Source of the DNA: Ziziphus jujuba
Lineage: Eukaryota; Streptophyta; Magnoliopsida; Rosales; Rhamnaceae
Direction of reading: 5' to 3'
DNA: 64,000 nt
Assembly (NCBI RefSeq): GCF_031755915.1
Contig: NC_083386.1
Span: forward strand, 10,540,001-10,604,000
The position numbers were made by a program, and so were the translations under genes. Shown here one piece after another: positions 4,454 through 43,675 of the stretch; position 1 is the first letter of the stretch, and every line of letters begins with the position of its first letter. The notes beneath the pieces are model-generated. The model worked only from the letters and a program-made list of their open reading frames with translations, was not told the origin of the DNA and ran no database searches.

Positions 4454-4653
4454 CTGCAAATATGCAGCAGAAAAAACCAACATCACCACTAGCATATACG
4501 TGATAGAATAAATGGTTATGTACACACATAAATAGATTAGTTTTCAACAACATATATATAATAAGCAAATTCGTATCTTGTATACATATAGAATAAACGT
4601 AATCCACAATTACGTTTTCTTATATGGTATATGAGAGTGTAAAAATACATGAC

Positions 4654-5521
4654 CTTTTTTCCCAGGAATGCTGTGCGTTGACTTAGTACTGGTGCTGGCA
4701 GTATTATGTTGGCCTTCTTGTTGATGGAAAGTCGCCTATGGACTTGTATTTGGGGTTGAACCATACCCTCTTCTAGTGGCAGAAGGACCTTGTTGTTGAT
4801 GGTAAGCCTCCTGTGGATTTGTATATGGGGTTGAACCATACCCTCTTCCAGTGGAAAAAGGACCTTGTTGTTGATGGCTAGCCGCCCGTGGATTTGTATT
4901 TGGGCTTGAACCATACCCTCTTCCAGTGGCAGAAGGACCTTGTTGTTGATGGTAACCCTCCTGTGGATTTGTATATGGGGTTGAACCATACCCTCTTCCA
5001 ATGGCAGAAGGGCCTTGTTGTTGATGGGTAGCCGCCCATGGATTTGTATTTGTGGTCGAACCATACGCTCTTCCAGTGGCAGAAGGACCTTGTTGTTGAT
5101 GGTAAGCCTCCTGTGGATTTCTATATGGGGTTGAACCATACCCTCTTCCAGTGGCAGAAGGACCTTGTTGTTGATGGTAAGCCTCCTGTGGATTTGTATA
5201 TGGGGTTGAACCATACCCTCTTCCAGTGGCAGAAGGACCTTGTTGTTGATGGTAAGCCTCCTGTGGATTTCTATATGGGGTTGAACCATACCCTCTTCCA
5301 GTGGCAGACGGACCTCGTTGTTGATGGCTAGCCGCCCGTGGATTTGTATTTGGGGTTGAACCATACCCTCTTCCAGTGGCAGAAGGACCTTGTTGTTGAT
5401 GGGTAGCCGCCCGTGGATTTGTATTTGGGGTTGAACCATACCCTCTTCTAGTGGCAGAAGGACCATTTCTGCTTTCCATAGTTTCAGAGTCATGACCAGT
5501 AGCTCTCCATTTGGTCCCTCA
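4654..5521 (-). pseudogene. repeat-rich protein gene remnant, unknown family
   Basis: On the minus strand a frame opens near a possible acceptor (TTTTAAG), gives a methionine at 5479 (MESRNGPSATRRGYG) and runs 247 codons to a TAG at 4736. Almost all of it is a 25-residue repeat with core GPSATGRGYGSTP, then a P-x-N-P step and a QQQ tail: rich in G, S, Q and P, likely disordered. The TAG sits where other repeats have a CGG arginine codon. Past it the same frame stays open to a donor at 4653 (AAAAAAG/GTCATG), with a Ser/Thr-rich tail (TASTSTKSTHS). The TAG therefore looks like a late nonsense change in a longer exon. A second minus frame is open over the whole array (342 codons) because the period is a multiple of three. 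I do not recognise the family. Confidence 0.35.
4711..5466. repeat. 75-bp minisatellite, about 10 copies
   Basis: The block CTTGTTGTTGATGG recurs at about 4787, 4862, 4937, 5012, 5087, 5162, 5237, 5312 and 5387, every 75 bases without exception, with diverged end copies. Two sub-types are interspersed: one with GTAAGCCTCCTGTGG and one with TAGCCGCCCGTGG. The alternation suggests higher-order duplication of pairs. No indel breaks the period, so all reading frames are preserved through the array. Confidence 0.95.
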
Positions 5522-6366
5522 CTTAAAATAAATAAAGGATGAATTATCACTAAACCCGGTTTCAATTTTATTATAATGAATGTGAAAAAGGGAGAGTTCT
5601 TATCAGTTTATTCCTTAATCAATTTGCAAGTAGTATGATTAATGTTAAGAGAAAGAAAAAAAAAAAAAATATATATATATATAGATCATTGGTTCAGTTT
5701 GCAATGAGCACTGGCGTATGCCATAGGTTCAAAGCTTAGTGATTCTATAGCCAGTTAGAGTAGTCACCAAGTTGTTCCAAAAAATAATAATAATGTTTCA
5801 ATACCTTAGCACATATGATATTATACACACAATAACTTAAGTATATATCATTTAAAAAAAAAAAAAAAACTCTTTGACCAAAACAAAAAAATATATATAT
5901 TTTGGTTTTGTTAGAAATTAATCAACCAAAATAAATTAAAAATTATAAAAAAATAAATATACTGATGTTTAATTATATTTTTATTTTGTCATTAACTAAT
6001 TGTACTAAAAAATCATAAATATAGATAAGTATATGTTAAAAAATAACAATTAGATAAAAATTATATTAGTATGAGTTTATAGATAAGTATTGTATTAATT
6101 AAAATAGTTTAAATTGGAGATAAGTGGTAGACGAACCAAAAATATATATAGATAAGTGAGGACCAAAAAAAAAAAAAAAAAAAAAAAAGGGTACCCGAAT
6201 CAAGAGAAGAAATGAAAAAGAAAAAAAAATTTAAATTTTGACTTAAATGAGGAGAAAGGGATGGGGCACGATTGTAAATTTCTATTCTTAGGAATAACTC
6301 TGCTCTTAGAAAAAAAGAAAAAAAAAAAAATGGAGGCATACAAACCTCACGCACCGTCGGAGACGT

Positions 6367-7060: not shown

Positions 7061-9612
7061 AGACTCTTAGAACGTTGAAATTAAAAGTCTCCTCCTGCAC
7101 TACTTGCTCACTTCTCTTAATTTTTTCTTCTCTATCGGCCCTGACCATGTGCATGTGTTGCTTGACCATATAACATGGATTCATATGGTTGATTTTATTT
7201 TTATTATTTGTTTGTGGATGTAGAAATAGATTGCATTATAATGCTAAACACAATTATGTATCAGAATGAACAACATAGAGAAAAGAACTAGCTAGGGAAG
7301 AGGTTATCATGATTGAATTACCCAAAAAAAAAAAAAAAAAAACAATTTCTATTTTTATTTTTTGTTTTTGGATGTAGAAATAGATTGCATTAAAATGCTA
7401 AACACAATCACGTATCCGAATGAACAACGTAGAGGGAAGAACTGGCTAGGGAAGAGGTTATCATGATTGAACCAAGAAAGAAAAAATAAAAAAATAAAAA
7501 ATCCTCTTTTACAAAAGAATTATATTGACACAGCTATAATATTAATGCAATATAAGCAATCATTTCGTAAGAAAAATAAAAATTTCAATGTATTTTATAT
7601 AATTAAATAACTAGACTCAACTTTTCTAAGAGAAAACTAATATAAGGATGCCAAAGTACTACCCATGTCACCGGAGCAATACATGATTAAAATTATATTT
7701 TTTCCACCGGTATCTAACTATGTCTGTTGCCATTATATCGTTCATCAGGCTTTGATATTAAAAGTCAAATAAGGTTAAGCAGTTAATAAGTCATTCACAT
7801 ACACATTTAGCAGGTCATGGGTTTAAAATATCGAGATGGAGAGAAATTGTTATAACTTTGCAAAGAAAGCACACCCCTAAATATATGGTTATCTTATTCC
7901 TCCCCCTTGTTACAGTTTTTAACAAATTTACAGCACTTTAATATATAAAATAGATAACAACACATTAAATACATAATTAATAAAAACAACACTTTTGTCC
8001 ATCATTAGCATAAGAAGATTTTAGGATTGTTCGAAATATATAAATATTACAAATAAAAAAGAAATATATTAGTAATAGTAAAATAACGACAAGATGAGGA
8101 GGAAAAGCTGCATAATACAGCTACAGGAGAAATGCAATCGAATAGTTTGCGTAGCTCGTACAATCGGTTCACTATCTACTTAGACCTCGGGGAACAAATC
8201 TGCAAAATAAAAAAAACTAATGAAATGCTAATAATCTCAATTAGTGGTATCTTTCTCATACCACTTTCTCATATTAACAGTAATATTAATACTACAAATA
8301 AATCATGAAAGAAATAATAATAATAATAATAATAATAAGAATAATAATAATAATAATTGTACAAGGAAATAAAATAAATATTTTGAAAATAGTTTTTCCC
8401 TCAAAACCCTTCTTAGTCCACCCATTTTGAAAAATTCCATATTAAAAAATTATAAAAGAAAACATTTTCACATAACTCATCATTTTGTTTCCCAAATTAT
8501 AAAAATAACTTATTAAAGAATAAGATAAAACAAAATAGCATTTAGATAACTATCCCAACAAAATAATCATTTAGATAAACAAAGAATTAAATAAATGATA
8601 TAATCCAAAAACAAAATATGTAACACATAAGTAAAATGAATAAAATAAATAAGTGCTTGTAAACCATTTAAAAACGTATAACATATAAGTAAATAATCAA
8701 TTTATTAAATAAAATAAAATAATTAAATAATTAAAATACTTAAATTAAATAAATAAATCAATAAATAATTTAAAATCAAATGAGTTAAAATCAAATAATT
8801 CAACAGTGAATAAAATAATATAGCATTTAAATAAATGATATAAATTAAAAATAAAATAAAACAAATAAGTGATTAATTAAACAAGTAAAACTATAATTTA
8901 AATAAATTCATTAAAAATATTTAAAAACACATATAATATCAAGCATATATATGATACACTATACTACATACTAATAATGTTAGAGAGGTATTTTGTGTTC
9001 CAAACACCACTTGACAATAGAGAAGGAGAAAAGAACCTACAATCGGACCCTTCGGCATTGGTAACTAATCGAACCCTTTGGTATTGCATAGTTATCGACA
9101 CTGACAACTTGTTATCATACAGCTAATGAGAGGGCGATTAATGCTGACATCCAAATACCTACTCACTCTTTCTCATCTTAGCTTTCACATGATGCTAAAT
9201 ATACTTGCACAATAATAAATGATAACACTAGCAAGAATACCAGTACTCTAATAACGCATTTAAAATTATAATGACCATGAAATATCATAGTATTGCGAAA
9301 GATCATATCGGACAATCATAAAACCAAAATCATCACCCAGCTGTATAAATCCTTCAAATCCGTAAATAAATAGAACAAATTATATATGAGTCAGCAATTT
9401 TCCATAATTCCATTTTTATAAATGAACATTGAAAGTTGTCTAACAAAACCAAATAATTTAAAAATACCATACCTTCAAAACTATCCCCAGTGATGTAAAA
9501 TTTTCAAACCACAAATAATAATTTTAAATTATTGATAAACATGATAACTCATAAATATATCCGTACTAATAATTCATACTAGACTATAATTTATAAAAAA
9601 AAAAAAAAAAAA
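7061..9612. repeat. array unit 1
   Basis: Host part is 7061-7860, LTR-derived part about 7870-9590 (minus strand), then an A tract. This unit has lost about 110 bases at the LTR start: the text jumps from 'AAATTGTTATAAC' directly to 'TTTGCAAAGAAAGC'. It has no internal insertion, so it is the best empty-site reference for unit 2. It contains an AAT microsatellite at 8310-8357. Confidence 0.75.
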
Positions 9613-11542
9613 AGGACTCATAGAACGTTGAAATTAAGAGTCTCCTCCTGCACTACTTGCTCACTTCTCTTAATTTTTTCTTCCCAATCGGCCCTGACCA
9701 TGTGCATGTGTTGCTTAACCATATAATTAACATGGATTCATATGGTTGATTTTATTTTTATTTTTTATTTTTGGACGTAGAAATAGATTGCATTATAATG
9801 CTGAACACAATCACGTATCGGAATGAACAACAAAGATGAAAGAATTGGCTAGGAAAGTGATAATCATGATTGAATGACCAAAAAAAGGAAAAAAATCCTC
9901 TTTCTCAAAAGAATTATATCGACACAGCTGTAATATTAATGCAATATAAGTAATAATTTCATAAGAAAAATAAAAATTTGAATGTATTTTTAATTTATAA
10001 CAAAATAACTATCCAACTTATCTAAGAGAAAACTAATATAACGATGCAAAAGTGCTATCCATTTCACCCAAGCAGTACATGATTAAAATTATATTTTTTC
10101 CACCAGTATTTAAATATGTCTATTGCTACTGTATCATTCATCAGCCTTTAATATTAAAAGTCAAATAAGGTTAAGCCGGTTAATAAGTCAATTCACATAC
10201 TCATTTAGGAGCTCAAGGGTTTAAAATATTGGGATAGAGAGAAATTGTTATAAATGATCAAAAATGTCATATGCTTTTCGAAGTTTTTGCTGGAACCATA
10301 AGATAGCCTCGACTAAGGGAAATGTAACACCTCGTCCCGAAGTACACTGGAAATTTCTCAAATTTGACCAAGGTTGACCGGGTTTGACCGTCGTTGACTG
10401 AGAATGGATCAAATGTTGACTTTTTACTCCTGATGGAATTTCACATTGAACGAGATACCGTTAAAAAGTACACATTGTCATGAGTTCATAGACTATTGTA
10501 CTTCAAAAACGAAGCTACGGTTTGAAAGTTATGAGCAAAACAAGTTGAGATCCAAACTGTCCAAGAAGTGCCGGAGTTGACTTTTTGTTCATGTAAAGTT
10601 GAGCTTTGACTCATGCATGGTTGTGAAGTACTCGTCGATACCAGTTCATAGACTAGCGGCACGCTTAAATTGGACATCTGATTAAAAAATTATGGACATG
10701 CGAAGTTTTTCGAATACTATAATATTTTAATATATTTGGCTTGAGTGAACAGTGTATGCCACGTGTCACAATTTCAGCCAATCCCATGAGTGAACAGTGT
10801 CACCCACGGGTGGCTTTTATTTTGGCAAAACACGGGAGCTGGGGAGAGGAGAGAGAAAGAAAGGATGAGAGAGAGAGAGAGAAAGAGAGAGTTAGAGAGA
10901 GAAACCAATCGACCATCGCCGTTCACCCATTTTTGGCCACCGGAACAGTACACACACCACCCCAACTTGAAGCCCACCTGAAGACCGGCCAGCCAGACAA
11001 AAATCACGACCAACCAACCGCCGATGCGTCTGGATCGAGGCTTTGTCTGACGGCGGTGCCGATCACTTCAAACCCAGATTTCTCCCTATTCCGGCCACCG
11101 TTTGCCTCACCGCCGGTCCCATTGAGTTACCCATCACCAGATCTACCTTCCCACCAAAAATCAATGCCAGTGGCCATCGGACGTGCCGCCGGCGGTGGTG
11201 GATTCCGGTGACCATGGTGGCTCACTGGGAAATTGACTTTCCGGCGAGTTTCCAGTTGCACCACCCCTCCTTTCCCACTAATTCCGACCCTCTGAACCTA
11301 AATCCGGTATCCACTTACCTCAATTCAGGATGGATTGTGAGAATCGAAGGCTTAAAATCCGTGGGCTTTCCGGTGAGATTCCGGTCACCACGGGTCCGAT
11401 CTCCGGGAGGTAAGCCTCAATCCGTGATCCTCGTTCCACAAACTTCGATTCGGTGTATTACTCATAAATTTTGGTTAACGTTTGTGTTAGTCATCCGAAT
11501 AAAATATTAATTTATTTGAGATGTGTAATGTTGTTGTTCTAG

Positions 11543-11603
11543 GAGCACGTGTGCGTCATAAAATTGATCCCATGGAGGATCTTGGGTTAATTGCGTGGTC
11601 GAG
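11543..11603 (+). ncRNA. 61-nt LTR mini-exon, copy 1
   Basis: It is bounded by TTGTTGTTCTAG and GTGAGTGACC. Upstream donor GGGAG/GTAAGCC at 11410 would give a 133-nt first intron. The core reads GATCCCATGGAGGATCTT. That it is an exon is inferred from splice-site conservation, not from transcripts. Confidence 0.55.
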
Positions 11604-12313
11604 GTGAGTGACCCACCTTCAAAATTATTTTGGGTGATTAATTATATATTTTGTGTTAATTGATTATTTGGAAATTATGTTTTATGTGTTAGTGACTTAA
11701 TAAAATTACTCTTTAATTTTATATTGTTAATTTATGATAATTTCAATGTGTGTTTTGGCGCCAAAAATATATTTGTGAATTAAAGGAATTGTGGTTTTAA
11801 TTCCTTCAATTTATTGTTATGTTTATTATTAGATTTATTGTGCATAGTTATATGATTTTAATACTGATGAAATTATGTGATTTAATATTACTTTGGTATG
11901 GATTGATTTTATGGATTTGAAGGGAATTATTTATTTTAAATTTATTATATATTGAGGAATCGTGGATTAATTATGTATATGAAATTTATGTGGTTTTAAG
12001 GATATGTTGATTTAAATGGATTTTGAGGATTGGAGAAAAATATTGTTTTAAAGAATTATGTTTCAAAAATATTTATGCCATTGGAAAATTGTATATTTGA
12101 GTTGATGGAAATGAAAATTGATGGATTTGAAAATTTTATAATTGTATCGATGGATTTTGTGATATGAGAAAAATTATATATATTATCGAAGTATTCATGC
12201 TGGTGATATTAAAAGAAAAATGTGAGTTGTGAATTTGAAAAGTAGTATAATTCCCACGGTAAATTTTGGAAAAAATTGCATATTTTTAATAATAAATTTG
12301 GTTATCTGTTTTA

Positions 12314-12583
12314 GACGCACTCATACAGTACTAGTGTTTTGTACTGTATATGTGGATGAGTGTGCAAGTTATAATGTCTCCCGTGAGTTGCCATCAGACC
12401 GAGGGTAGGCAAGTTTGATATTGGCCATAAGCCACCCCCTTCATGGCCGGGATGACGGTTTAAGCAGCGGCGCTGTTGGGACGCCGAAGCGATCATATGC
12501 AAGTTTCTCTCTTTAACCTCCTGCCAGATGGTGCCGGGACGCTGGATATCATAGGGCATCACTGGTATATAGTGTGGTGCGTC
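12314..12583 (+). other. GC-rich LTR module, copy 1
   Basis: 270 bp with inverted ends: GACGCAC...AGTG at the left, CACTGG...GTGCGTC at the right. A perfect 9-bp stem (ATACAGTAC / GTACTGTAT) follows the left end. The module starts directly at a TGTTTTAG acceptor and stands out as GC-rich within AT-rich LTR sequence. Confidence 0.75.
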
Positions 12584-13838
12584 AAGTATTATTTTTCTGA
12601 TATAAATTTCAAATCCTAAAGTTTTAAAGTCGTAATTGAATTAAATGTATTTAATGTTGTTTTTATTATTCATTTCATTGGAGATTTTAATACAAATTTT
12701 ATGGAATTTTATTCTGTTTTTAATTACCTATTTATATTAATGTTTTAACAATGCATTTTATCTTGATTTTACTATTTACATTGATTTGATGATTTTAAAG
12801 AGATCTTACTATGTCTTTACCATTTATTTTAAATGGAGGTTTTAATTATTCCTTGTTCAATTAATTAATTCATTATAACTATTTTAATTATTTCCTAAAT
12901 TGTCTTAATGTAAGTTTCATTAATATTTTTGTATTATTTGTTTATGACATTATCAATCATTTAGTAATTGTTACAAAATTATTTTTATTTCTATTCCTGT
13001 TTTATTTTCATTATAAATTTTGGATGCTTGATTTATTATATTTTATTTTATTTGATATTTAGTTAACTAATTGTTTCCTTGGTTTTCGGAGAATACAAAT
13101 AACGGGTTTTATGAAAATGTTTTAAAAGGGGAACTTTTCCAACGGAGTGAATGGTGAGGGTTTTGAGAGAAAATATTATTTTCAATTAATTATTATTTAT
13201 TAATTTATTCTTAATTAATCAAATATACTATAATTAACTTTGTTTTATAGCTGCATAGTAGATAGCATCACTCACTGAGATGATTAGCATTTCATATTTT
13301 TAAATTCCGTTCCCCTAGGTACAAGGATTGGGAGACGTTGATCATCCAGGGCGAGCCCAACGTCTCAGTTCATTGCCGAAATTCCAAGAAGCATTTCCTC
13401 CCTTTTTCCTCTTCATCTTGTATTGCTTCCTTATCTGACATTGAATAAATTTTATGTTTATTTGTATAATGCTCTGTATACTGTATTGGACATTTAGTTA
13501 TTAATTATGCACTGATTTACTGTTATTCATTTGGAGTGCTGCAAATTTGTAGAATTAAATTATAGTAATGTGGGAGGAATCATGGGATGTATATAGAAGT
13601 GTGTTTTCAGTGCAGGAAATTTGTGGTAAGTCCAACCCTTAGGGGAAGTTCTGCCGGATTTTCTATTGGAGGGTCCAGTAGAGTTTCTCTGTGATCAGGG
13701 CTTGTCTAGGATTCCGATGAGAAATTTTGGACGGGTCCTGACAGAAAAACCCATCGAAAATTTTACAAAAAATTCAATGGCATCTCCCATATAAATTGAA
13801 CTTTCCCAAGTGATTTTTGCATAGAAAGCAAGCTCCTA

Positions 13839-14234: not shown

Positions 14235-15838
14235 TCCTACATATATAGTTACCTTATTCCTCCTCCTTGTTATAGTTTTCCACAAATTTGCAGCACTTTT
14301 ATAGATAAAAAAGACAACAACACAATAAATACATAATTAATAAAAACAACACCTATGTCCATCATTAGCATAAGAAGATTCTAAGATTGTTCAAAATATA
14401 TAAATATTACAAATAAAAGAGAATTATATTAGTAATAGTAAAATAATGACAAGATGAGGAGTAGGAAAAAATACATAATACAGCTGGAGGAGAAATGCAA
14501 TCAAATAGTTTCCATAGCTCATACAATCAATTCATGATCTACTTAGACTTAGGGGAATGAATCTACAAGATAAGAAAAACTAGTGAGATGCTAAATATCT
14601 CAATAAGTGGTATCTTTCTAATATTAAGAGTAATATTGTAACACCTCGTCCCGAAGTATATCAAAATTTTTCTCACATTGACTGGGTTTGACCACCATTG
14701 ACCAAGTGGGTCTCATTTTAACTTTTTGAACTAGATGGAATTCTATGATGATCAAGGCACCATTGCGAAGTACGCATTAACACAAGTTCGTAGACTAGTA
14801 TTACATTGAAACAAAGCTAAGGTTTGAAAGTTATGGGCAAAACAAGATACGGTCCAAATTGTCTGAGGGTGCCAGGTTTGACTTTTAATTTTATAAAATT
14901 TTACATTGACTCATGTATGGTTGTAAAGTACTCATCGATACAAGTTCATAGACTATTGGCATGCCTAATTTGGACATTTGATTAGAAAGTAGTAGACTTG
15001 AAGTTTTTCAGGGACAGCGTTTAATGTGTATCGATCTGTATACATGTGCACAGTGCCCAATAACACTGTGCCACATGTCACATTTTTGGGCCAATCCAAG
15101 AGTGCATAGTGCCATCCATGAGCATTTTGATTGGGCAAGAAGGGCAGAGAGAAGGGAGAGAAGGAAGAGAAAGAAGGAGAAAAAGGAAAGAGAGGGAGGA
15201 ATCGGCGTTAGGCTGTTCACCCTTTTCTGGCCACCACTATGCAACACACACCAGCCCACCATGAAACCAACCTAAAAACCAGCCGGCCACCCAAAAACCA
15301 CAGCTAGATTGCCAGCGATGTGCCCGAATCAAGGCGTTTACCAGCGATGGCCCCGTTTCCTTCTGCCACTGATTTCTCCCAAACTAGCCACCCATTTTTT
15401 ACATCGCTGATTCCATTAGCTTATCCATCCTTCAATCTACCTCCCCACAAAAAATCACAGCCAGTGGTGATGGTTTCCGATGACCATGTCGCCTCGTTGG
15501 AAAACTTGGTTCCGACGAGTTTTTGATGACATTTTCCACCCTTTCCCACTAATTTCACATCCCTGAATCTAAATCCAAGGTTCTTTTCGCTCAATTCTTG
15601 ATGGATTATAAGATTTGTGGACATCAGTTCCGACACTTTTCTAGCGAGATTCCAACCACCACAGGTCCGATCTCTTGGAGGTAAAACTTGATTTGTAATT
15701 CTCATATCGTAAGCTTCATTTCGGTATATTATTTGTAAATATTGGTTAACATTTATGTTAGTTCCCCCGGGTAACTGTGCATAAAATACCCAATTAAAAT
15801 ATTAATTTAATTGATTTTGTATGGCATTGATATTTTAG

Positions 15839-15899
15839 AAACATGTGTGAGACATGGGATCGACCTCGTTGAGGATCTTGATTGATAACCGTGCTTGAG
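15839..15899 (+). ncRNA. 61-nt LTR mini-exon, copy 2
   Basis: It is flanked by TTGATATTTTAG and GTGAGTTTAT. Sequence differs from copy 1 at many sites, yet the length and both splice sites are identical. Confidence 0.5.
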
Positions 15900-16541
15900 G
15901 TGAGTTTATCCAACTTCAAATTTATTTTCAAGTGTCAAATTATTTATATTTTACATTAATTAAATATTTGGATTTGATATTTTATGTGTTGGAGATTTAA
16001 TAAAATTGCAATCTAAATTTATATTGCCAATTTATGATAATTTTTAATATATGTGTTGTTGCCAAAAATATATATCGGAATTTAAAGGAATTATGGTTTT
16101 GAATTCTTATTAGTTATTATTATGTTTATTATTGAATTTATGATACATAATAAATGTGTTTATATGAATTTAATTGCATATGAATTTTAATATTATTTTT
16201 GGTACAACTTGATTTTAAAGATTTGAAGAAAAATATTTGTTTGAAGTTATTACGTTTCAAAAATATATTTATGCATTTAAATGTTATGGATTTGATTTTA
16301 CAGCATTGATAAATTGGCATATTTTATCTATGGATTTATGAAGATTTGAGGGAATATTGTTTTAAATTTTTTATGCTCAAACAATGTATTTATGCATTTG
16401 ATTATTTGTGGATTTGATTTAGTTATGGTGAAATTGATGGATTTATGATTATGGTTTAAAGGTAATGTAGATTAATGGATTTGAAAAGTGATATTTATGA
16501 GATTTCAAGATTTGGAAAATATATGATTTTACTGGTTTTTA

Positions 16542-16819
16542 GATGCACATACAATACTAGTGTTCTGTATTATATATGTGGATATGATTAGCATGCAGGT
16601 TTATAGAGTTGTACTGTGGCTGCCATCGCAACGAGAGTAGGCAGGGTATAATGTGCAGTGAGCATCAGCCACCCCTCTCCATTGCCAGGATGGCTGATAG
16701 CAACGGCGCTGTGGAATGCCAAGCAGTCGTACGTCGGTTTCCCTCGTTAACCCCCCCTTAAGACGATGCTTGAGATGCTGGATACTATTGGGCATCACTG
16801 GTATATAGTTTGGTGCATT
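16542..16819 (+). other. GC-rich LTR module, copy 2
   Basis: It begins after GTTTTTAG, with ends GATGCAC and GGTGCATT, the CpG-decayed forms of GACGCAC and GTGCGTC. The short stem reads ATACAATAC / GTATTATAT: the G-C pair of copy 1 has become A-T on both arms. Confidence 0.7.
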
Positions 16820-18028
16820 AAATCGTTTTGTCGACATGATTTTCAAAACTAAATATTTTAAAATCATATTTAAATTTAAAATATATTTAATGGTGTTTTT
16901 ATCATTTATTGCAATTGATGTTTTAAAAATGCATTTTACCATGATTTTGTTATTTAAACTGATTTGACTATTTAAAATGTTTTAAAAATGCATATTCTTA
17001 CATTTTATGTCAAATAGATGTTTTAAATTGATTCAAATATTCCTTTTATTATCAAATTGATTTATTCTACTTATTTTAAACTGATTGTTAAAATGCATTT
17101 ATTCATGTTTTTATTATTATTTCAATGTGGGATTTTAACATGAAATTTATTGTATTTAATTGCCTATGCAAATTGAGGTTTTTTTTAAAACTAATTAAAA
17201 TAATTCTTTTACTATTTATTATTTCATTGAATTAATTAATAAATTTGATAAATTATATATTGAGTTTAGTTTTGTTTGGTTAATTTGCTTTTGTACTAAA
17301 TTCTTCTGATACAAATTCTATTATTTATTTGTGACTTTATTTTATCTTATGATATTTTATTATATTTTTCATTAAACTATCCTCAAAGTTATGTTGTAAG
17401 ATTTAAATTATTGTATTTTATTTATTTAACATTTCCTTAATTTTTGGGGTATACAAATTATTTTCAACTAATTAATATTTATTTATTTATTTTTAATTAA
17501 TCAAGTGTATTATTTTACTATGATTATTATTACTATTATTGTATAGTAGATAGGGTCACTCACTGAGATGATTAGTATTTCGCATTTCTAAATCCATTCC
17601 CCTAGGCTCGGGTTTGGTAGATGTGACCATCCTTGGGTGAGCTTGACTTTTAAAGTTATTTCTTTTCTTTCCTATCTTGTAAATTTTTTCTTCTTATTTT
17701 TCTTTTTATCTTTTATTGTAAATTTCATACTTAGTTGTAACTTTAAAATGTTCTGTATGCTACATCGAGTATTTATTTATTTAATATTACACTGATTCCC
17801 TTTTTATTATTATGAAGTGCTGCAAACTTGTGGAAACAAATTGTACTATGGTAGCAAAAATAAGAAGATATTGTTATAAGTGTGTTTTTTATGCAAGAAA
17901 TTTTATGGTAAGTCCAATCCTTAGGGAAGATGCTACTGAATTTTCCATTGGAGGGTTCCGTAGAGTTTCCCTGGGATCAGGATTTATCTAGGGTTCAGGT
18001 GATAGATCGTAAACGGGTCCTGACGGAG

Positions 18029-18040
18029 TGGTATTAGAGC
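18029..18040 (+). other. primer-binding site
   Basis: TGGTATTAGAGC, three bases inside the 5' LTR end. It has one change from TGGTATCAGAGC, the complement of the initiator tRNA-Met 3' end. Confidence 0.85.
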
Positions 18041-18159: not shown

Positions 18160-20150
18160 GTTGTAATAACTCAAACCCCTTGAGATGCCAATTAAAGATC
18201 GCCACTCCTGCAGAAGAGTTCCCATGGTTTAGTCAAATGGTCAAGGGTTGTCTCTTCTGTATTGAAGATCAAGTGATGGAAGCAAATCTTATTCTGTTGG
18301 ACCTTTTAGGCTTAAAGTAATCATAGACATGTAATCATAGACATGGATTGGTTAGATGTGAATCGTACCTTTGTGGATTGCTACAATAAAGAAGTAAGGT
18401 TTATGTGATTTGGCCTACCCAAAGTGGTGTTTTGTGGAAACTTTAAGAGATTTTTGACAAGGTTAATTTCTACATTCACAGCCAAGAAGCTATTAAAGAA
18501 CGGTTATTAAGGATATCTAGCCCATGTGATTGATACTTGAGTATATGGTGAAAGGTTAGAAGACGTCCTTGTAGTGATAGACCGTTCGAAGGTGTTTCCC
18601 AACAAGTTACTTGGGTTACCACTGGAAAAGGGGATTGACTTTGCCATCGAATTGGCTTTGGGCACCTACCTATTTCTTTATCGCCATGCCATATGGGTCT
18701 AATAGAATTGAGGGAGCTAAAGTTCAACTGTAAGATTTGGTAGATAATGGATTCATTAGACCAAGTGTATCACCAAACTCCAAGGTGCCAAGAAGTTTTT
18801 CAAGATTAACTTAAGGTCTGGGTTTCATCAATTGAGAATCCGAGAGTCGGACATCCTTGAAGTCAAGAAAGAAATCCTAAAGGAGGCACACAGTTCGATG
18901 TATGCGATGCAACCCAAAAGTACTAAAATGTACTGCACACTCATTAAGTACTACTGGTGAATTAACATGAAGAGGGAAGTTGCACATTTCATATCAAAGT
19001 GTTTAATCTTTCGACAAGTGAAGGTGAAAAGACAGAAACCTTCAGGGCAACTTCAACCCTTGCCTGTTCTCGTATGGAAGTGGGAAGATCTCAATACGGA
19101 TTTCATGTTCAAACTTACTCCCATAGAGAGAAGGTACAATGGGGTTTAATCGACTTACCATGTCAACACACTTTCTACTTGTATGAGAGCCGTTCTCACT
19201 AAAGAAATTAGCCGAGTTGTTCGTGAGGCACATCGTGAGTCTACATGGAATGCTGATCATCATCACATCTAATAAAGATCTACACTTTACTTTATGACTG
19301 TGGTGAAAGTTAGCAGATGCACTTGGAGCAAGGCTCAACTACCATATCGCCTTTCACCAGTGGACCGATGGACAAGCGGAGCGCAATATTCAGACTTTGG
19401 AAGATATGTTAAGATCATGTATCATGCAATTTGGAGGAAGCTAGGACGAGCAATTGCCATTGGTAGAGTTAATTTATAATAACAGGTACCAAGCAAGCAT
19501 CGAAATGTCCCCAGTTGAGGCCCTATATGGGAGACAATGTCAAACCCCACTGTGGTGGAATGAATTAGGCGAGGAGAAGCTCTTGACGGCAAACAATGTG
19601 ATTGGTCCGACTACCTACGGATGACTATGGATAAAGCAAAAGTCATCCAAGAAATAATGAAGGCTGCTGATGATCAACAGAAGAGTTAAATAGACGTGCA
19701 TAGAAAAGATCTTGAATTTAAAGTCGAAGATTAGGTTTTCTTGAAGTCATCACCGATGAAAGGAGTCGTACGCTTGGGCCGACGAGGGAAGCTAAGTCCT
19801 CATTACCATAGGTGCCTATGAGATTATCAAGAGAATTGGTTTTGTGGCATACAGGTTAGCATCATTGGAAAAGATAGCACGAGTACACAACATGTTTCAC
19901 ATTTCGATACTCCGAAAGTACATAGCAGACCCATCACACATGCTTGAGGCTTCCAACATCGAGTTAAGATAAGACCTATCATATACGAAGCATCCAGTTC
20001 AGATCTTAGATCACAAGGAGTGCATATTGATCAATAAGACCATTTCTCAAATCAACATATTGTGGTGAAATCACCTAGTCGAGGAGGTGATGTGGGAGCC
20101 TAAGGCACAAATGCTCAACCAGTACCCCTACATGTTTCAATGATGCAAAA
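18160..20150 (+). pseudogene. pol remnant: protease, RT start, integrase, chromodomain-like tail
   Basis: Protease-end sequence (18230-18440) has an IDMDWL-type motif, followed by the start of reverse transcriptase (18560-18860: a P-L-E-R-E-I-D-F block, a DNGFIRPSVSP-like block and GFHQLRIRESD). At about 18866 the text jumps into the integrase zinc domain (EAHSSMYAM, then KCLIFRQVKV, where the last Cys of the HHCC set is Phe). The lost part covers the RT active site and RNase H. Integrase core (FKL-type and QPLPVPVWKWE-like blocks), a GPYEIIKRIG-like motif (19815-19840) and a tail with PVQILDHKE and WEPKAQM (19990-20110) follow. That tail resembles the C-terminal chromodomain of the plant Tekay/Del clade. 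Many stops and frameshifts make it inactive. Confidence 0.85.
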
Positions 20151-20171: not shown

Positions 20172-20182
20172 AAAGGGGGAGA
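20172..20182 (+). other. polypurine tract
   Basis: AAAGGGGGAGA immediately before the 3' LTR, the expected plus-strand primer site. Confidence 0.8.
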
Positions 20183-21413
20183 TTTTAACACTCCATCTCA
20201 AAGTACACTAAAATTTTTCTCGCATTGACCAGGTTTGATCGTCATTGACCAAGTGGGTCTCGTTTTGAATTTTTGACCTAGATGGAATTCTATGTTGATC
20301 GAGGCACCATTGTGAATTATGCATCAACACAAGTCTATAGACTAATAATAGCATGTGAAAAACAAAGTTGCAGTTTAAAAGTTATAGGTAAAACAAGATG
20401 CAGTCTGAACTGTCTGAGAGTGCCAATTTTACATTTTATTTTTATAAAGTTTTGCTTTCACTCATGTATGGTTGTAAAGTACTCATCAATACGAGTTCAT
20501 AGACTCGTGACATGCCTAATTTGGACATTTTTTTAGAAAGTAACAGACCTACAAATTTTTTCCGAGACAACATTTAATGTGCATCGATCTGTATACATGT
20601 GCATAGTGCCCAATAACACTGTGCCACATGTCACATTTTTAGACCAACCCATGAGTACACAATGGCACCCATGGGCATTTTGATTGGGTGAGAAGGGGAG
20701 AAGGAAGGGCAGAATGAAGAGTGAGAAAGAGAAAGAGGAGAGAGAAGGAGAAACCAACCTTACATCGTTCATCCTTTTCAAGCCACCACCATGCAACACA
20801 CACTGGCCCACCGTGAAGCCAACCTGAAAACTAACCGGCCACCCAAAAACCATAGCTATATCACCAACGACGCTCCCAGATCAAGGCATTTTCTGGTGAT
20901 GGCCCTGTTTCCTTCCACCACCGATTTCTCCTAAACTAGCCACCCACTTTTAACACCACCGGTTCCATTGGCTTATCCATCCTCCAATCTACCTTTCCAC
21001 CAAAAATGAAGGCCATTGGCCACCAGACGCACCATCGGTTGTAACAATTTTCAGTGACCAAGGTGGCTCCTCGAAAAACTTGGTTCCGATGAGTTTCTGA
21101 TGACACCTTCCACCCTTTCCCACTAATTTGACCTCCCTTAATCAAAATTCGAGGTCCTTTTCCCTCAATTCTTGACAACTCATGAGATTTGTGAACATTA
21201 AGCCTAAGATATTTCTGATGAGATTTTCGGCCACCACAAATCCGATCTCCAGGAGATAAGACTTGATTTATAATCCTCGCATTGTAAGCTTTGTTTCGGT
21301 ATATCATTTGTAAAATTTGTTTAACGTTTGTGTTAGCTCCCCCGGGTAACCTTGCATAAAATACCCGATTAAAATATTAATTTAATAAGTTTTGTGTGGC
21401 ATTGATATTTTAG

Positions 21414-21474
21414 AAGTACGTATGAGTCGTAGGACCGACCCCGTTGAGGATCTTGATTAATAAGCATGCTTGAA
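21414..21474 (+). ncRNA. 61-nt LTR mini-exon, copy 3
   Basis: Between ATTGATATTTTAG and GTGAGTGATC. The 61-nt length is unchanged. Confidence 0.5.
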
Positions 21475-22183
21475 GTGAGTGATCTACCTTCAAATTTATC
21501 TTCAGCCATTAAATTATATATATTTTGTGTGAATTAAATATTTGGATTTGATATTTTATGTGTTGGAGATTTAATAAAATTGCTATCTAAATTTATATTG
21601 CCAATTTATGATAATTTTTAATATATGTGTTGTTGCCAAAAATATATGTGCGAATTTAAAGGAATTATGGTTTTAAATTCTTATTAATTATTATTATGTT
21701 TCATATTGAATTTATGATACATAATAAATGTGTTTATATGAATTTAATTGCTTATGAGTTTTATATGAATTTTATTATTATTTTTTGTACAACTTGATTT
21801 TAACGATTTGAAGAAAAATATTTGCTTACATTTATTATGTTTCAAAAATATACCTATGCATTTAAATGTTATGGATTTGATTTATGGCATTGAAAAATTG
21901 GTATATTTGCATCGATGGATTTATGATATGGAATTCTATATAGATTGGATTTTTAAGATTTGAGGGAATATTGTTTTAAAATTTTAATGCTCAAAGAACG
22001 TATTTATGCATTTGATTATTTTTTTATTTGATTTAGTCATGGTGAAATTATTGGATTTACATTGATGGATTTAAAGTGATGGATTTATGATGATGGTTTA
22101 AAGTTGATGTGGATTAATGGATTTGAAAAATGGCATTTATGAGATTTCAAGATTTGAAAAATATATGATTTTATTCGTTTTTA

Positions 22184-22462
22184 GGTACACCATACAGTAC
22201 TGGTGTTCTGTACTGTATATGTGAATATGATTAGCACGTAGGTTTATAGGGTCATCCTATGGTTGCCATCGGATCGAGGGTAGGCAAGGTATAATATGCA
22301 GTGAGCATCAGCCACCCCCTTCCATGGCCAGTATGACTAATAGCAACGGTACTGTGAGACATCAAGCGACCGTATGCTGGTTTCTCTCTTTAACCTCCCC
22401 GTCAGCCCGTGCTCGGAACATTGGATACCATCGGGCATTACTGGTGTATAGTTTGGTGCATT
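22184..22462 (+). other. GC-rich LTR module, copy 3
   Basis: It follows GTTTTTAG. The stem ATACAGTAC / GTACTGTAT is perfect here, as in copy 1, while the outer inverted ends are decayed. Confidence 0.7.
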
Positions 22463-25400
22463 AAGCGGTTTTCTCGACATGATTTTCAAAATGAAATATT
22501 TTAAAATCATATTTAAATTTAAAATGTATTTAATTGTGTTTTTATCATTTATTTGAATTGATGTTTTAAAAGTACATTTTATCGTGATTTTATTATTTAA
22601 ATTGATTTGACGATTTAAAATGGATTTTATAATATTCTTACATTTTATTTTAAATAGATGTTTTAAATTGATTTAAATATTCCTTTTATTATCTAATTGA
22701 TTTATTCTATTTATTTTAAACTAATTATTAAAATGCATTTATTCATGTTTTTATTATTGTTTCAATGTGGGATTTTAACATCAAATTTATTGTATTTTAT
22801 TGCCTATGCAAATTGAGGTTTTTTTTTTAAAAACTAATTAAAATAATTCTTTTACTATTTATTATTTCATTGAATTAATTAATAAATTTGATAAATTATA
22901 TATTGAGTTTAATTTTGTTTGGTTAATTTGCTTTTGTACTAAATTCTTCTAATACAAATTCTATTATTTATTTGTGACTTTATTTTCTCTTATGATATTT
23001 TACTATAAATTCACTTATTTGTTATTAAATTATCCTCAATGTTATATTGTAAGATTTAAATTATTGTATTTTATTTATTTAATATTTCCTTAATTTTTTG
23101 GGTATATATTGGGTTTTGTGAAAATATTTTAGAAGGTGAATCTTTCCAACTGAGTGGATTGTGAGGATTTTAAGGGAAAACATTATTTTCAACTAATTAT
23201 TATTTATTTATTTATTATTAATTAATCTAGTGTATAATATCATTATGATTATTATTACTATTATTGTATAGTAGATTGGGTTACTCACTAAGATGATTAG
23301 CATATCACATTTTTAAATTTGTTCCCCTAAGCTCAGGTTTTGTATATGTGACCTTCCGAGGTGAGCTTGACTTCTTACTTCGTTGCCATCTTCCAAGGAG
23401 TTCCTTCTTTATTTTCCTTCCTATCTTGTAATTTTTTTTCTTCTTTTTCTTTTTATCTTTTTTTGTATTAAATTCCATACTTAGTTGTAACTTTAAAATG
23501 CTCTATATGCTACATTGAGTATTTATTTATTTAATATTACACTGATTCCCTATTTATTATTATGAGGTGCTGCACACTTATGGAAACAAATTATAGCAAG
23601 GTAGGAGGAATAAGGAAATAAAGAATAAGTGTATTTTACGTGCAAAGAATTTTATGGTAAGTCCAACCCTTAGGAGAGATACTGCCAGTTTTTCCATTGA
23701 GGGTCCAAGAGGATTTTCCTAAGATCATGGCTTTTCTAAGATTCTGGTAAGAGATTTTAGATGGATCCTGACAAATGCTAATAATAAAAATAAATAATGA
23801 AAGAAATAATAATAACAATAACAACAACAACAACAATACTAATAATAGTAATAGTGCAAGGAAATCAAATATGAAAACAATTTTTCCCTCAAAACCCTCG
23901 TTAGTCTACTCATTTTGAAATTCAATATTAAAAAAAAAAAAAAAAACACTTTCACATAACACATCATTTTGTTTCACAAATTATAAAAATAACTTATTAG
24001 AGGATAAGATAAAAAAAAAATAGCATTTAGATAACTATCCCAACAAAATAATCATTTAGATAAATAAATAATTAAATAAATCATATAATCCAAAAACAAA
24101 ATATGTAACACATAAGTAAAATGAATAAATAAATAAGTGCTTGTAAACCATTTAAAAACGTATAATATATAAGGAAATAATCAATTTATTAAATAAAATA
24201 ATTAAAATACTTAAATAAAATAAATAAACCAATAAATAATTTAAAATAAAATGAGTTAAGATCAAATAATTCAACAATGAATAAAATAATATGACATTTA
24301 AATAAATTATATAAGCCAAAAATAAAATAAAACAAATGAGTGATTAATTAAACAATTAAAACTACAATTTAAATAAATTCATTAAAAATATTTAAAAACA
24401 CATGTAATATCATGCATATATGTGATACACCATACTATAAACTAGTGATGTTAGAGAGATATTTTGTGCTCCAAACACCATTTGACAAGAGGGAAGGAGA
24501 AGAGAACCTATAATCGGACCCCTTGGCATCGCATAGTTATTGACACCGACAACTTGTCATCCTACAGTTAATAAGAGAGCGATTAATGCTAACATGCAAA
24601 TATCTACTCACTCTCTCTCATCTTGGCTTTCACAGGATGATTAAATATACCTGCACACTACTAAACGATAACAGTAGCAAGAATACTAGTACTCTATAAT
24701 ACATTTAAAGTTATAACAACCATGAAATATAATAATATAGCAAAAGATCATACCAGAAAATCATAAAATACCAAAATCATCCCCCAGCGGTGTAAATACT
24801 TCAATTCCATAAACAAATAGAACAAATTATATATGAATCACCAATTTTCCATAATTCCACTTTTATAAACCAACATTGAAAGTTTTCTAACAAAACCAAA
24901 TAATTTTAAAATACCATACCTTCAAAACTATCTCCATTGATGTAAATTTTTCAAACCATAAATAATAACTTTAAATTATTAATAAACATCATAACTCATA
25001 AATAACTTTAAATTTTTCTTCTCATGAACATGTGCATATGTTGCTTGACCATATAACATGGATTCATATGGTTGATTTTATTTTTATCTTTTATTTTTGG
25101 ATGTAGGAATAGATTGCATTATAATGCTTAACACAATCACGTATCGGAATGAACAACAAAGAGGAAAGAATTGGCTAGGAAAGTGGTAATCATCACTGAA
25201 TGACAAAAAAAACGAAAAAAAAAATCCGCTTTCTCAAAAGAATTATATCGACACAGCTGTAATGTTAATGCAATATAAGTAATAATTTCATAAGAAAATA
25301 AAAATTTGAATGTATTTTTATAACAAAATAACTATCCAACTTATCTAAGAGAAAACTAATATAACGATGCGAAAGTGCTATCCATATCACCCGAGCAACA

Positions 25401-25754
25401 CATGATTAAAATTATAGTTTTCCACCATTATTTAAATACTGTATCATTCCTCAGCTTTTAATATTAAAACTTAATAAGGTTAAGCCGGTTAATAAGTCAA
25501 TTCACATACTCATGCAGGAGCTCATGGGTTTAAAATATCAAGAGAGAGAGAAATTTTTATAAACGATCAAAAATGTCATATGCTTTTTAGAGTTTCTTGT
25601 TGGAACCCTAGGATAGCCTCAACTAAGAGAAAACCCATCAAAAATTCTACAAAAAATTCAATAGCATTTCCTATATAAATTGAACTTTCCCAAGTGATTT
25701 TTGCACAAAAAACATGTAACACCCCGTCCTAAATCGTACCGGAATCCGTGCACG

Positions 25755-25836
25755 TTGACCGAGGTTGACCGTTAACCGTTGACCGAAGAGGTCAAAAGTT
25801 GACTTTTTGACTCGGTGAGAATTTCGAGTTGACCAG
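25755..25836 (+). promoter_or_regulatory. W-box cluster in LTR start
   Basis: TTGACC or TTGACT occurs about six times here, with two more at about 25958 and 25992. TTGAC(C/T) is the binding site of WRKY transcription factors, often stress-responsive. Other family-A copies keep a similar cluster in the first 120 bases. Confidence 0.55.
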
Positions 25837-26138
25837 GGTACCGTGGCAAAGTGCACGATGCCCTGAGTTCGTAGACTGGTAGCACGTCGAAAACGGAGCT
25901 ATGGTTTGAAAGTTATGGACGAAACAAGTTGCGGTCCAAACTGTCCAAGGGGTGCCGGAGTTGACTTTTTGTTTATGGGGAAATGAGCTTTGACTCGTGC
26001 ATGGTTGTGAAGTGCTCGTCGATACGAGTTCACAAACTAGCGGCACGCTCAAAACAGACATCCGGTTAAAAAGTTATGGACATTTGAAGTTTACCGGATA
26101 CCGTAATATTTTAATGTTTTGGGTCGGTGAACAGTGAA

Positions 26139-26175
26139 ATGCCACGTGTCAGCTTCTGATTGGTCCACGTGGCAT
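26139..26175 (+). promoter_or_regulatory. inverted G-box pair around CCAAT-type box
   Basis: ATGCCACGTG and its inverse CACGTGGCAT enclose TCTGATTGGTC, whose inverse complement contains CCAAT. CACGTG is the core of bZIP/bHLH sites (ABA- or light-linked). It lies just upstream of the GA tract and 30 bases past a TAATATTTTAAT run, so a core promoter here is plausible. Confidence 0.5.
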
Positions 26176-27095
26176 GAACAGTGTCACACCGGGGTTTTTA
26201 TTTGATAAAAATCTCGGGGAAGAGAGAGAAAGAGAGAGAGGAGAGAGAAAGAGAGAGAGAGAGACCGCCGGCCACCGGAGTTTTTCCACTGTTCCGGTCG
26301 AGTTACTGTGCACGCGCCGGCCAGCAAGCTTGCCCTCCCCATTTCCGGCGAAACCTCCAAGTTTCAAGGCGAACGGCCGCCGGACTCGCCCGTATCGGAC
26401 CTCCGAAGATCGGCGGCGAGTTTTTCCCCTCCACCGCCGGCCACCGTAAATCGACCCATTTCTGGCCATTTTCCGGCCACACGCGCCTTACACCCTTGAT
26501 CCTCTCCTCAAGTCCGGCCGACCCACCAAAAATCACGGCCATCGGACCACCGACACGCCGGGATCGGAGCGTTTTCTGGCGATGGGCCGGAAAACTTCAA
26601 ACGGTGATTTCTCCACCGTCCGACCTCCGTTTTGCTCACCGCCCGTCCCGTTGGGTTGCTCTCCTCACGATCTACAAGTCTGCAAAATTTCACGACCAAC
26701 GGCCACCGCACGCGCCGCCGCTGGCGACAGTTGCCGGTGACCGCGGTGGCTCGCCGGAAAGTACTGTTCCGGTGAGTACCCAGTTTTCCGGCCAGCTCCA
26801 GTCAACTGTGTTCGACCTCCTGAACCCGAATCCGGCTTCTATTTCCACCAATTCGCGATGGTTTGGGAGAATTGCGGAGCCGAAACCCGAAAAGCTTTCC
26901 GGCGAGATTCCGACCCCGTCGGGTCCGATCACCGGAAAGTAAGACCGAATCCGTGATCCTCATCACGCGAGCTTCGATTCGGTATATAACTCGTAACCCT
27001 TTAGATATCGTTTGGTGTTCGCTCCCCGGGTATCCATTTGGGAATTACCCGAATAAAATATTAATATTTTTGGTTTGTGCACTGTGGTTGTTTAG

Positions 27096-27156
27096 GTGCA
27101 CGCACGAATAGCGGAGTTGATCCCGATGAGGATCTTAGTTGATTTACGTGCTCCAG
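27096..27156 (+). ncRNA. 61-nt LTR mini-exon, copy 4
   Basis: Between GTGGTTGTTTAG and GTGAGTGACC. With the donor at 26939 (GGAAA/GTAAGA) intron 1 would be 157 nt. Confidence 0.55.
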
Positions 27157-27570
27157 GTGAGTGACCCACCTTCAAAAAAATTATTTTGGGCAATTAATTA
27201 TATTTAATTGGTATTTAAATTATGCTCATGTGGTGTGGTTTATTTATGGTTTTATTGTGGTTTAATTTATTTGTTATGCATGAGCAAAGTATGTTTCGGT
27301 ATTAATTGTACGTGGTTTTCAATATTAATTTTTCGGGCATAATTGGGTTAAATATTTTACGAAAATATTTGGTTATATTTTATAAATTATGCCGCGGTAT
27401 TTTTATGGTTGCATCTCGTATTTCGAGGAAATTGTGATTTGTTGGTTATCGCTGTTTCGTACCGGGTTGTTGAATAAAAATATGTGGGATGGTGTTTTGT
27501 GAAAATTTGGTATACTTCCCACGGTGGTTTTTGGAAAAACGGTACGGTTGGTTATTATTGTTTATTTTTA

Positions 27571-27870
27571 GACGCACTCATACAGTATTGGTGTTCTGGT
27601 GTATGGTGTATGGACACGTGGTAGCACGCGGTTATTATGTGATTTAGCGTGCGGTTATTACTTCACCCGTGAGTTGCCATTGGACCGTGGGCAGGCAAGG
27701 TTATTGTTGCACACAGCCGCCCCCCTCCTTGGCCGGGTGATGGTTTTTAGCAGTCGGTACTGTCGGGACGCCGAAGTGACCGTTGCAGGTTTCTCTCTTT
27801 AACCCCCCGCCAGTCGGTGCTCGGGACGCTGGGTATCGGAGGGCATCACCGGTATATGGTGTGGTGCGTC
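27571..27870 (+). other. GC-rich LTR module, copy 4
   Basis: 300 bp beginning after ATTTTTAG, with GACGCAC and GTGCGTC ends intact. It is about 30 bases longer than copy 1 because of a local duplication (GCACGCGGTTATTATG then GCGTGCGGTTATTA). Confidence 0.75.
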
Positions 27871-42160: not shown

Positions 42161-43675
42161 GTGCTTGTAATTAAGTTAATGTACATAATTTTGTAAGATT
42201 ACTTCTTTGCCTATTTTTATTTAATTAGATGTTGATTTATAAATAAAGGAAACCCAATTCTGGTAATAATTATTTTTCTGTTTTGAAAGGACAGTTCTTG
42301 ATTTATGGTTTGTAAATCGAAATGGGGAAAACCTTTATTTTTTATATCTATATATGTACATATTTGTAGATATGTTTATCTGTGTGTATATTTAAATATA
42401 TGTGTATGATTTTGATAAGATTATTTATATATTTATATATTCATTTGATTATTAGTGTATTTACTTATTAATTTAATATTAAGATGATTTCAATGTGGTT
42501 TGCTTTCTTAAAATATTCCATTCGGGCCTTCCAAATTTATTTATGATTGGTTATTCATTTTTGGATAATAACTAGATAGCTAATATTATGATTGATTTTA
42601 TAGACACTGTAACATTGTTCATTAATATCTTTGAATATTATTATTTCTCATATTTTTATGCTTATTTGTGTATTATTTAAATACTCATCTATTTATTTGT
42701 TTATTAATTTATTTATCCAATAATTATTTGAAACATTTAATTATGGTTTTTAAAATGAAATTATGAGGAATTAACATTTTCGTACCATATAGTACTAGTG
42801 TTCTATTCTATTGTATCTATGGATTAATGCATAGGTTATATTTGGTCATTCTTTGTGAATTGTGGTAAGAAAGGGCAGGTAGGTTGTCAGGACCCGTCCA
42901 AAATTCCTCACCGGAACCATAGACAAGCCCTGATCCCAGGAAAACCCAACCGAACCCTCCAATGGAAAATCCGGCAGAACCTCCCCTAAGTGTTGAACTT
43001 ACCATAAATTCCTGCACTGAAAATACACTTCTAAATTCATCCCCTTATTCCTCCCACAATACTACAAGTTGATTCCACAAATTTATAGCACTCCAAATGA
43101 ATAACAGTAATTCAGTGCATAATTAATAACTAAATGTCCAATACAGTATACAGAGCATTATACAAATAAATGTGGAATTAATACAATGTCAGATGAAACA
43201 ATACAAGATGGAGAGGAAAAAGGAAGGAAGTGTTTCTTGGACTTTCGGCAATGAACTGAGACATCGGACTCGCCCCGAACGATCAACGTCTCCCAACCTG
43301 GACCTAGGAGAACGGAATTTAAAAATATGAGATGCTAATCATCTCAGTGAGTGACCCTATCTACTGAACACTTTTAATATTAATAATATGGAAATAAAGG
43401 AATTTAATTAATACCAACAATTAAATAAATAAATAAATAATAAACAATTAAAGTAATAATTTCACTCAAAATTCTCACTATTCACTCCGTTGGAAATGTT
43501 CCCTTTTTAAAACATTTTCACAAAACCCGTTGCTTGTATTTCCCGAAAACCAAGGGATCAATTAATTTAATAAACAATAGATAAATACCCCAAATATAAA
43601 TAAAATGTAATAAAATATAATAAATAGTTTTTGAACACTTTGGGGTTTGAAATTTCTATCCGAAAATTTATACTT

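Follow-up and report, generated by a model that had tools for sequence, protein, structure and literature searches.

What would a retrotransposon gain from splice sites inside its own long terminal repeats (LTRs)? The question is raised by 64,000 nucleotides (nt) of the jujube genome (Ziziphus jujuba, contig NC_083386.1, 10,540,001–10,604,000; hereafter the window, whose positions serve as coordinates throughout), which harbor six long LTR copies of one family (A–D on the plus strand, E and F on the minus strand) together with several fragments. The original prediction held that these LTRs carry a conserved multi-exon splice layout with a 61-nt mini-exon, that they are transcribed as a spliced leader or non-coding RNA, and that selection kept their splicing while the family was active. 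We favor, at somewhat better than an even chance, a version of this idea in which the LTR of an apparently Ty3-type family would carry a spliced or spliceable multi-exon non-coding leader, with the unspliced RNA serving as the genome. At the level of sequence, the predicted leader finds support in GC-richer, seemingly non-coding blocks that lie between an AG and a GT of the right polarity; a general role of the mini-exon as a cassette does not stand.

Copy A is the reference for all site coordinates. Its layout is given below, with a slash at each putative exon border and with counts over the 29 aligned LTRs (rows) described in the next section.

10860–11409, plus strand: putative exon 1, GA-rich and then GC-rich; 5′ border provisionally at 10860
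11410–11411, plus strand: donor D1, GAG/GTAAGC; subfamily-specific
11541–11542, plus strand: acceptor A2, TTGTTCTAG/GAG; AG in 28/29 rows
11543–11603, plus strand: putative mini-exon (exon 2), 61 nt
11604–11609, plus strand: donor D2, GAG/GTGAGT; GT in 26/29 rows
12313–12314, plus strand: acceptor A3, TTTTAG/ACGCAC; AG in 27/29 rows
12315–12585, plus strand: putative exon 3, GC-rich (GC measured to 12591)
12586–12587, plus strand: weak candidate donor D3, TCAA/GTATTA, picked after the composition border had been seen; GT in 22/29 rows
13317–13318, plus strand: acceptor A4, CCCCTAG/GTAC; AG in 27/29 rows
13319–13625, plus strand: putative exon 4, with AATAAA at 13444 in copy A
13626–13631, plus strand: donor D4, GTG/GTAAGT, 118 nt upstream of the LTR end; GT in 28/28 rows with letters

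Recurrence and composition of the putative exons

To sample the family beyond the window, we used a 41-nt pattern from the 3′ LTR end, which with up to three mismatches occurs at 158 places in the genome (393,829,984 bases in 14 contigs). From these places 40 LTR stretches were fetched in listing order, a choice that is independent of the splice sites and biased to the closest matches of copy A's 3′ end and to low-numbered contigs. Ten stretches had no recognised start and were left unaligned; the other 30 and the six window copies gave 36 rows. The main statistics refer to the 29 rows whose exon 2 is intact, namely the six window copies and 23 LTRs from elsewhere in the genome, the seven omitted rows being truncated (L012, L028), devoid of the exon-2 region (L015, L020, L040, L046) or marked by a deletion in exon 2 (L042).

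The window copies are:

10323–13743, plus strand: LTR copy A, 3,421 nt, TG...CA ends; exon 2 at 11543–11603
14637–18025, plus strand: LTR copy B, 5′ LTR of an old element; exon 2 at 15839–15899
20185–23773, plus strand: LTR copy C, 3′ LTR of the same element as B; exon 2 at 21414–21474
25715–28672, plus strand: LTR copy D; exon 2 at 27096–27156
42885–45618, minus strand: LTR copy E; exon 2 at 44415–44355
59380–62186, minus strand: LTR copy F; exon 2 at 61250–61190, donor ATGAGT

As predicted, all six have an AG followed by exactly 61 nt and then GTGAGT (ATGAGT in F), and the two diverged copies agreed as well, with 56 nt before GTGAGT at 39394 and 60 nt before GTGAAT in the copy ending near 47797. 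For E and F, the predicted positions 44355 and 61190 mark the 3′ ends of the minus-strand blocks. Across the alignment, the homologous sites lie exactly 61 nt apart in 29 of 33 LTRs, three truncated or misaligned rows of the 36 being skipped. The four exceptions are L042, with its deletion, and L015, L020 and L040, a subfamily without the mini-exon in which AAG/GTATAT or AAG/GTATCT lies close by. L046 is also without the mini-exon region; the AAG/GTAT donor near the same place belongs to the other three. Genome-wide, an exact two-ended pattern (TAGGAGCAC-N(40-68)-GGTGAGTGACCCACC) matched 2,565 places and its reversed control none. Since this pattern presupposes intact ends, only the length is informative: among the 100 matches listed, 93 measured 61 nt, six 60 nt (five of them in one tandem array) and one 62 nt.

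Counted over all rows with letters, AG or GT is kept at A2 in 29/33, D2 in 30/35, A3 in 33/35, A4 in 29/36, D4 in 35/35, D1 in 17/33 and D3 in 28/35. The claimed TTTTAG acceptor before the GC module (A3) and the GTAAGT donor close to the LTR end (D4) are thus present in most aligned copies or in all of them, and the CCCCTAG acceptor (A4) is widely kept and lost in window copy C. An AATAAA within 13425–13470 occurs in copy A alone among the 36 rows.

According to the accessible text of PMC3735527, a plant intron should be U-rich and its flanking exons richer in GC. In 33 rows, mean GC is 0.535, 0.465, 0.508 and 0.362 for putative exons 1–4 and 0.346, 0.247 and 0.242 for putative introns 1–3, which contain 0.40–0.45 T; exon 4 is itself T-rich (T 0.39). 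In a two-state segmentation, given two compositions that we set after the GC measurement and no site positions, the median distance to the nearest border of the right direction was 17 nt for D2, 2 nt for A3 and 12 nt for A4, compared with 224 nt for random positions (29 rows). Such a border lies within 30 nt of D2, A3 and A4 in 19, 16 and 24 of the 29 rows, respectively (random positions, 8.1%), and within 15 nt in 10, 16 and 24 (random positions, 4.7%), so that composition provides what we regard as partly independent support for the putative exon–intron layout. The donor-like motif GTRAGT occurs 104 times in sense and 29 times in antisense orientation in 33 rows, with 27 of the sense occurrences at D2 and 25 at D4, and 23 of the antisense ones at a single site.

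Coding exons were considered and rejected, there being no three-base periodicity. The best frame is free of stops in 20 of 29 rows for the 61-nt exon 2 and in no more than 3 of 29 for exon 1, 3 or 4; the blocks look non-coding.

Changes at the splice sites on internal branches

In trees of the aligned LTRs, we took a change on an internal branch to have occurred while the family was active, and one on a terminal branch to reflect mostly decay after insertion. On the whole-LTR tree of the 29 rows, the dinucleotides of A2, D2, A3, A4 and D4 show no internal and nine terminal changes. When three AG and two GT were drawn at random from the LTR, the sets averaged 14.5 internal changes (p 0.0009), and the same test on the 23 non-window rows gave a mean of 10.7 (p 0.0019); when the five sites were slid together, zero internal change was found in 2/253 and 1/270 shifts. 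The hexamers of D2, A3 (TTTTAG) and D4 are likewise without internal change on this tree. On local trees D2 stays at zero, D4 acquires one internal change in six columns, and the internal/terminal ratio is 0.55 for exon 2 versus 0.67 for intron 1.

On the whole-LTR tree, this ratio is 0.76, 0.46, 0.71 and 0.51 for exons 1–4 and 0.49 for the unique 3′ region (U3). Intron 1 has a ratio of 0.88 and intron 3 one of 0.78; intron 2 is split between 0.45 in its initial 90 nt and 0.94 beyond them. The tracts of A2, A3 and A4 reach 0.82, 0.50 and 0.24, and the hexamers of D2 and D4 zero. Among 121 control hexamers conserved in the window, 40 stay free of internal change in the remaining rows; of these, several overlap D2, A3 and D4, and others lie, for example, around 11481–11509, 13270–13306 and 13471–13479. 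The stretch 13270–13306, before A4, has few internal-branch changes and may hold a branch point or serve another function; a similarly quiet stretch precedes A2 (~11500–11509).

A putative spliced leader and its rivals

In the reading that we prefer, the LTR would combine a promoter with a downstream non-coding leader of several exons, interrupted by T-rich introns of the plant type. Visible in the sequence are the GC-richer blocks A2–D2, A3–D3 and A4–D4 in the right polarity, T-rich stretches between them, and core sites that are mostly kept. Transcription would start in the LTR, and transcripts would be partly spliced from D2 to A3 and from D3 to A4. U1 bound at D2 and D4, whether or not splicing ensues, may allow the polymerase to traverse the long T-rich leader with no premature cleavage, and may promote expression and export. 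We propose that unspliced RNA is the packaged and reverse-transcribed form, which would explain why new copies retain the introns. A splice from D4 into the interior would delete the primer-binding site (PBS), thereby barring spliced RNA from reverse transcription. Where an upstream donor exists, the 61-nt exon would act as a cassette; with D1 lost, the first exon and the mini-exon would form one block ending at D2.

A considerable number of results weigh against this reading, beginning with the conservation tests. Because the sites had originally been chosen for looking conserved in the window, controls need to be matched for window conservation. With controls conserved in at least five of the six window copies, five zeros have p 0.12 (23 rows) or 0.14 (29 rows), 18 of 28 matched AG and 21 of 30 matched GT being without internal change in the 23 other rows. 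Taken individually, the sites are not exceptional either (retention of 91–100% versus control means of 83% for AG and 87% for GT). The A2 and A4 hexamers show three and two internal changes in 23 rows (five and three in 29 rows) and do no better than 32% and 24% of all 6-nt windows (23 rows), and on local trees the A2 and A3 tracts (0.79 and 1.14) do no better than introns. The claim that the surroundings drift much more than the sites is overstated: the sites are better kept than the average AG or GT, but do not stand out among those present in at least five of six window copies, the A2 and A4 hexamers do change internally, and D4 sits in a block conserved as a whole. Selection on splicing while the family was active, as proposed in the prediction, finds moderate support. 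The five dinucleotides are indeed free of internal change, but with p 0.001–0.002 against all AG and GT and 0.12–0.14 after matching, such selection is likely but not proven.

Other objections concern the layout itself. The GTAAG donor D1 (11410, and 26939 in copy D) was mistaken for a conserved site: GT is found in 16 of 29 rows, copy C has ATAAG, copy E lacks the site, and the remaining rows have other candidate donors or none. In L050—apparently young, as judged from two identical mini-exons on one strand, 6,667 bases from each other, and equipped with A2, D2, A3, A4 and D4—no donor scoring at least 3 was found in the region read before the mini-exon, the first ~145 nt of the LTR lying outside the stretch. 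With roughly every second aligned LTR, and L050 as well, lacking the upstream donor, the mini-exon is not a general internal cassette exon. Its constant 61 nt is also less telling than it appears, since putative intron 1 is nearly constant in length, too (median 156, quartiles 155–157). A2 shows no composition border (within 15 nt in 8 of 29 rows), and the one near D3 (median 3 nt away, 21 of 29 rows) arises partly by construction and counts for less, D3 having been chosen after the composition profile was seen. By the table of approximate plant frequencies used for all donor and acceptor scores, the strongest single donor of copy A is antisense; a donor score alone hence proves nothing.

The search for traces of splicing adds to these objections. 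Two junction patterns for spliced exon 2–exon 3 retrocopies, searched genome-wide with up to three mismatches, gave zero matches each, with a detection of about half (a precise junction from 14 of the 29 rows would match one or other pattern). A lack of intronless copies would follow from reverse transcription restricted to unspliced RNA, and just as well from a complete lack of splicing. In the three elements aligned downstream of the PBS, no acceptor for D4 proved to be conserved; a candidate CCTAG near 18140 (copy B) was discarded, as it is not kept in L027 and L046. Finally, since the elements examined are internally broken, a benefit via translation would need a helper.

Some of these results fit a reading in which the subfamilies inherited the conserved blocks as modules for promoter function, packaging or integration, set apart by AT-rich spacers, with splice-like borders that are a coincidence picked by eye. 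This would agree with the lack of significance in the matched test, with the internally unchanged segments that have no obvious splice role (such as ~13270–13306 and 13471–13479) and with the conservation of the sequence after D4 as a whole. The right polarity at three consecutive blocks, the composition borders near D2, A3 and A4 and the sense bias of GTRAGT argue against such a coincidence, which we consider unlikely. Alternatively, D2 and D4 may matter solely by binding U1 and so protecting a long, T-rich transcribed repeat from premature cleavage and polyadenylation, with acceptors that are incidental or rarely used. They are the cleanest sites of all (on the whole-LTR tree, 0 of 12 columns change on internal branches), D1 is dispensable, no D4 acceptor is kept after the PBS, and precedents come from foamy virus and, for U1 and premature termination in a plant element, from EVADE (accessible texts of PMC3694450 and PMC8892269). 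Yet the acceptor dinucleotides of A2, A3 and A4 are equally free of internal change and composition borders lie at A3 and A4 as well, and we consider a role of U1 binding without regular splicing unlikely, too.

The possibility that the blocks are stem-loop RNA modules merely flanked by splice sites can be largely set aside. Arms in the mini-exon (GAGCACG/CGTGCTC) are seen by eye in several copies, and an inner 5-bp stem is kept in 26–29 of 29 rows with a z of −3.6 versus column shuffles, but z drops to −1.8 with 8-nt flanks, the outer arms fall outside the predicted consensus structure, and the predicted stems have no pair changed on both sides. A search of 10000–33000 against Rfam, with E up to 1, returned no match.

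The spliced leader that we favor could be part of a larger scheme, in which the LTRs of a several-thousand-copy family bear their own splicing program, selection separates a spliced pool without the PBS from an unspliced genomic pool, subfamilies gain and lose the 61-nt cassette, and solo LTRs spread promoter–exon–intron units. We put this forward as a tentative and, in its entirety, doubtful extension.

The element family and its place among known systems

The repeats belong to a genuine LTR retrotransposon family, as is evident from TG...CA ends, target-site duplications, a PBS and a polypurine tract (PPT). Family LTR ends resemble TGTAACACC...GGACGGGTCCTGACA. LTRs B and C are the two ends of one old element (85.2% identity; Kimura two-parameter distance (K2P) 0.168), whose interior contains:

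18029–18040, plus strand: PBS TGGTATTAGAGC, after LTR B; one mismatch to TGGTATCAGAGC
18541–19972, plus strand: broken pol remnants, reverse transcriptase-like and integrase-like by eye, Tf2-1 SH3-like by profile
20172–20182, plus strand: PPT AAAGGGGGAGA, before LTR C

In a Pfam profile search, the pol piece at 19796–19972 matched SH3_Tf2-1 above the cut-off (E 1.7e-10); among the pol pieces of this element, an Integrase_H2C2 match stayed under its cut-off and four of six pieces gave no Pfam match. L050, too, has a PBS after the LTR end and pol-like remnants. The family probably belongs to the Ty3-type retrotransposons, its pol being known from broken pieces alone, and in its C-terminal end and long LTRs it resembles the Tekay/Del chromovirus clade, a candidate placement. 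Identical 5-bp flanking repeats are present at 13 of the 30 fetched copies with a recognised start; we read these copies as probable solo LTRs with target-site duplications.

Elsewhere in the genome, several same-strand pairs of identical mini-exons ~6.5–7.3 kb apart on contig C1 (genome G000) suggest a young, internally short element. The same contig has 22 mini-exon matches on one strand with a period of ~3.5 kb, about one LTR length, at C1:9510557–9584445—an apparent tandem LTR array—and five matches at ~6.65 kb spacing at C1:1740003–1766666. For jujube, the accessible text of PMC12596083 describes tandem-repeat-like structures built from LTR segments of a centromeric element.

Within the window, a profile search matched diverged antisense LTR-like sequence at 7858–8495, 14250–14614, 28572–30097, 31026–31606 and 31659–32543, among blocks that recur along the window; with these matches, the guess that the internal repeat blocks are element interiors was dropped. 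At 4537–5607 on the minus strand, open frames of 356 and 260 amino acids (aa) consist of tandem 75-nt (25-aa) units. Against Pfam, the 356-aa frame gave scattered, mutually senseless matches and the 260-aa frame none.

Long LTRs, a short or broken interior and many copies characterize non-autonomous elements of the LARD (large retrotransposon derivative) type; introns in the LTR are not known to be part of their description. Plant LTR elements are generally intronless, with Ogre and EVADE as notable exceptions and a mention of BARE1, in the accessible text of a 2025 review (PMC12786077). BARE1, a Ty1/copia element of barley, has a spliced Gag RNA and, adjoining gag where the pr domain starts, one intron of 104 nt (PMC3735527, accessible text). 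Our family is similar in being a plant LTR retrotransposon with a U-rich putative intron between GC-rich flanks, and the separate pools of spliced and unspliced RNA that this source describes for BARE1 are proposed here as well; unlike the single intron by gag, several putative introns, read from sequence alone, follow each other inside a non-coding LTR. Introns in a plant LTR element are also what EVADE (an Arabidopsis Ty1/copia element in which U1 binding is tied to premature cleavage and polyadenylation; PMC8892269) and Ogre share with the putative arrangement here, but theirs serve subgenomic RNAs, as far as the accessible texts go. Measured by what BARE1, EVADE and Ogre have in common, GT–AG sites and a U-rich, GC-poor intron are found for D2–A3 and A4, while D1 is not conserved and D3 is weak; the putative introns are placed not in or next to a coding region, but inside the LTR, among blocks that look non-coding.

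Outside plants, the LTR of foamy virus contains the major splice donor, which precedes the poly(A) signal, and U1 controls the poly(A) choice (PMC3694450, accessible text). A strong donor inside a repeat present at both ends is the common feature, and the virus has one major donor in place of an exon chain within the LTR. Spliced non-coding RNAs that start in or contain an LTR are described for ta-TRIM solo-LTR transcripts of tapeworms and for MIKKI of rice (accessible texts of PMC4558846 and PMC5599236); there, splicing joins the LTR to other sequence, whereas here the exon chain would sit within each LTR of a large family. Our search of the open-licence literature, with subscription papers outside its scope, retrieved no description of an exon chain inside a plant LTR.

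If the proposed reading is true, every solo LTR would amount to a mobile promoter that brings its own exons and splice sites. This would matter for the ways in which long-LTR families rewire host transcripts and in which a plant retrotransposon separates its genomic from its expressed RNA without splicing in the coding region, and would explain in functional terms why LTRs reach 3 kb and beyond.

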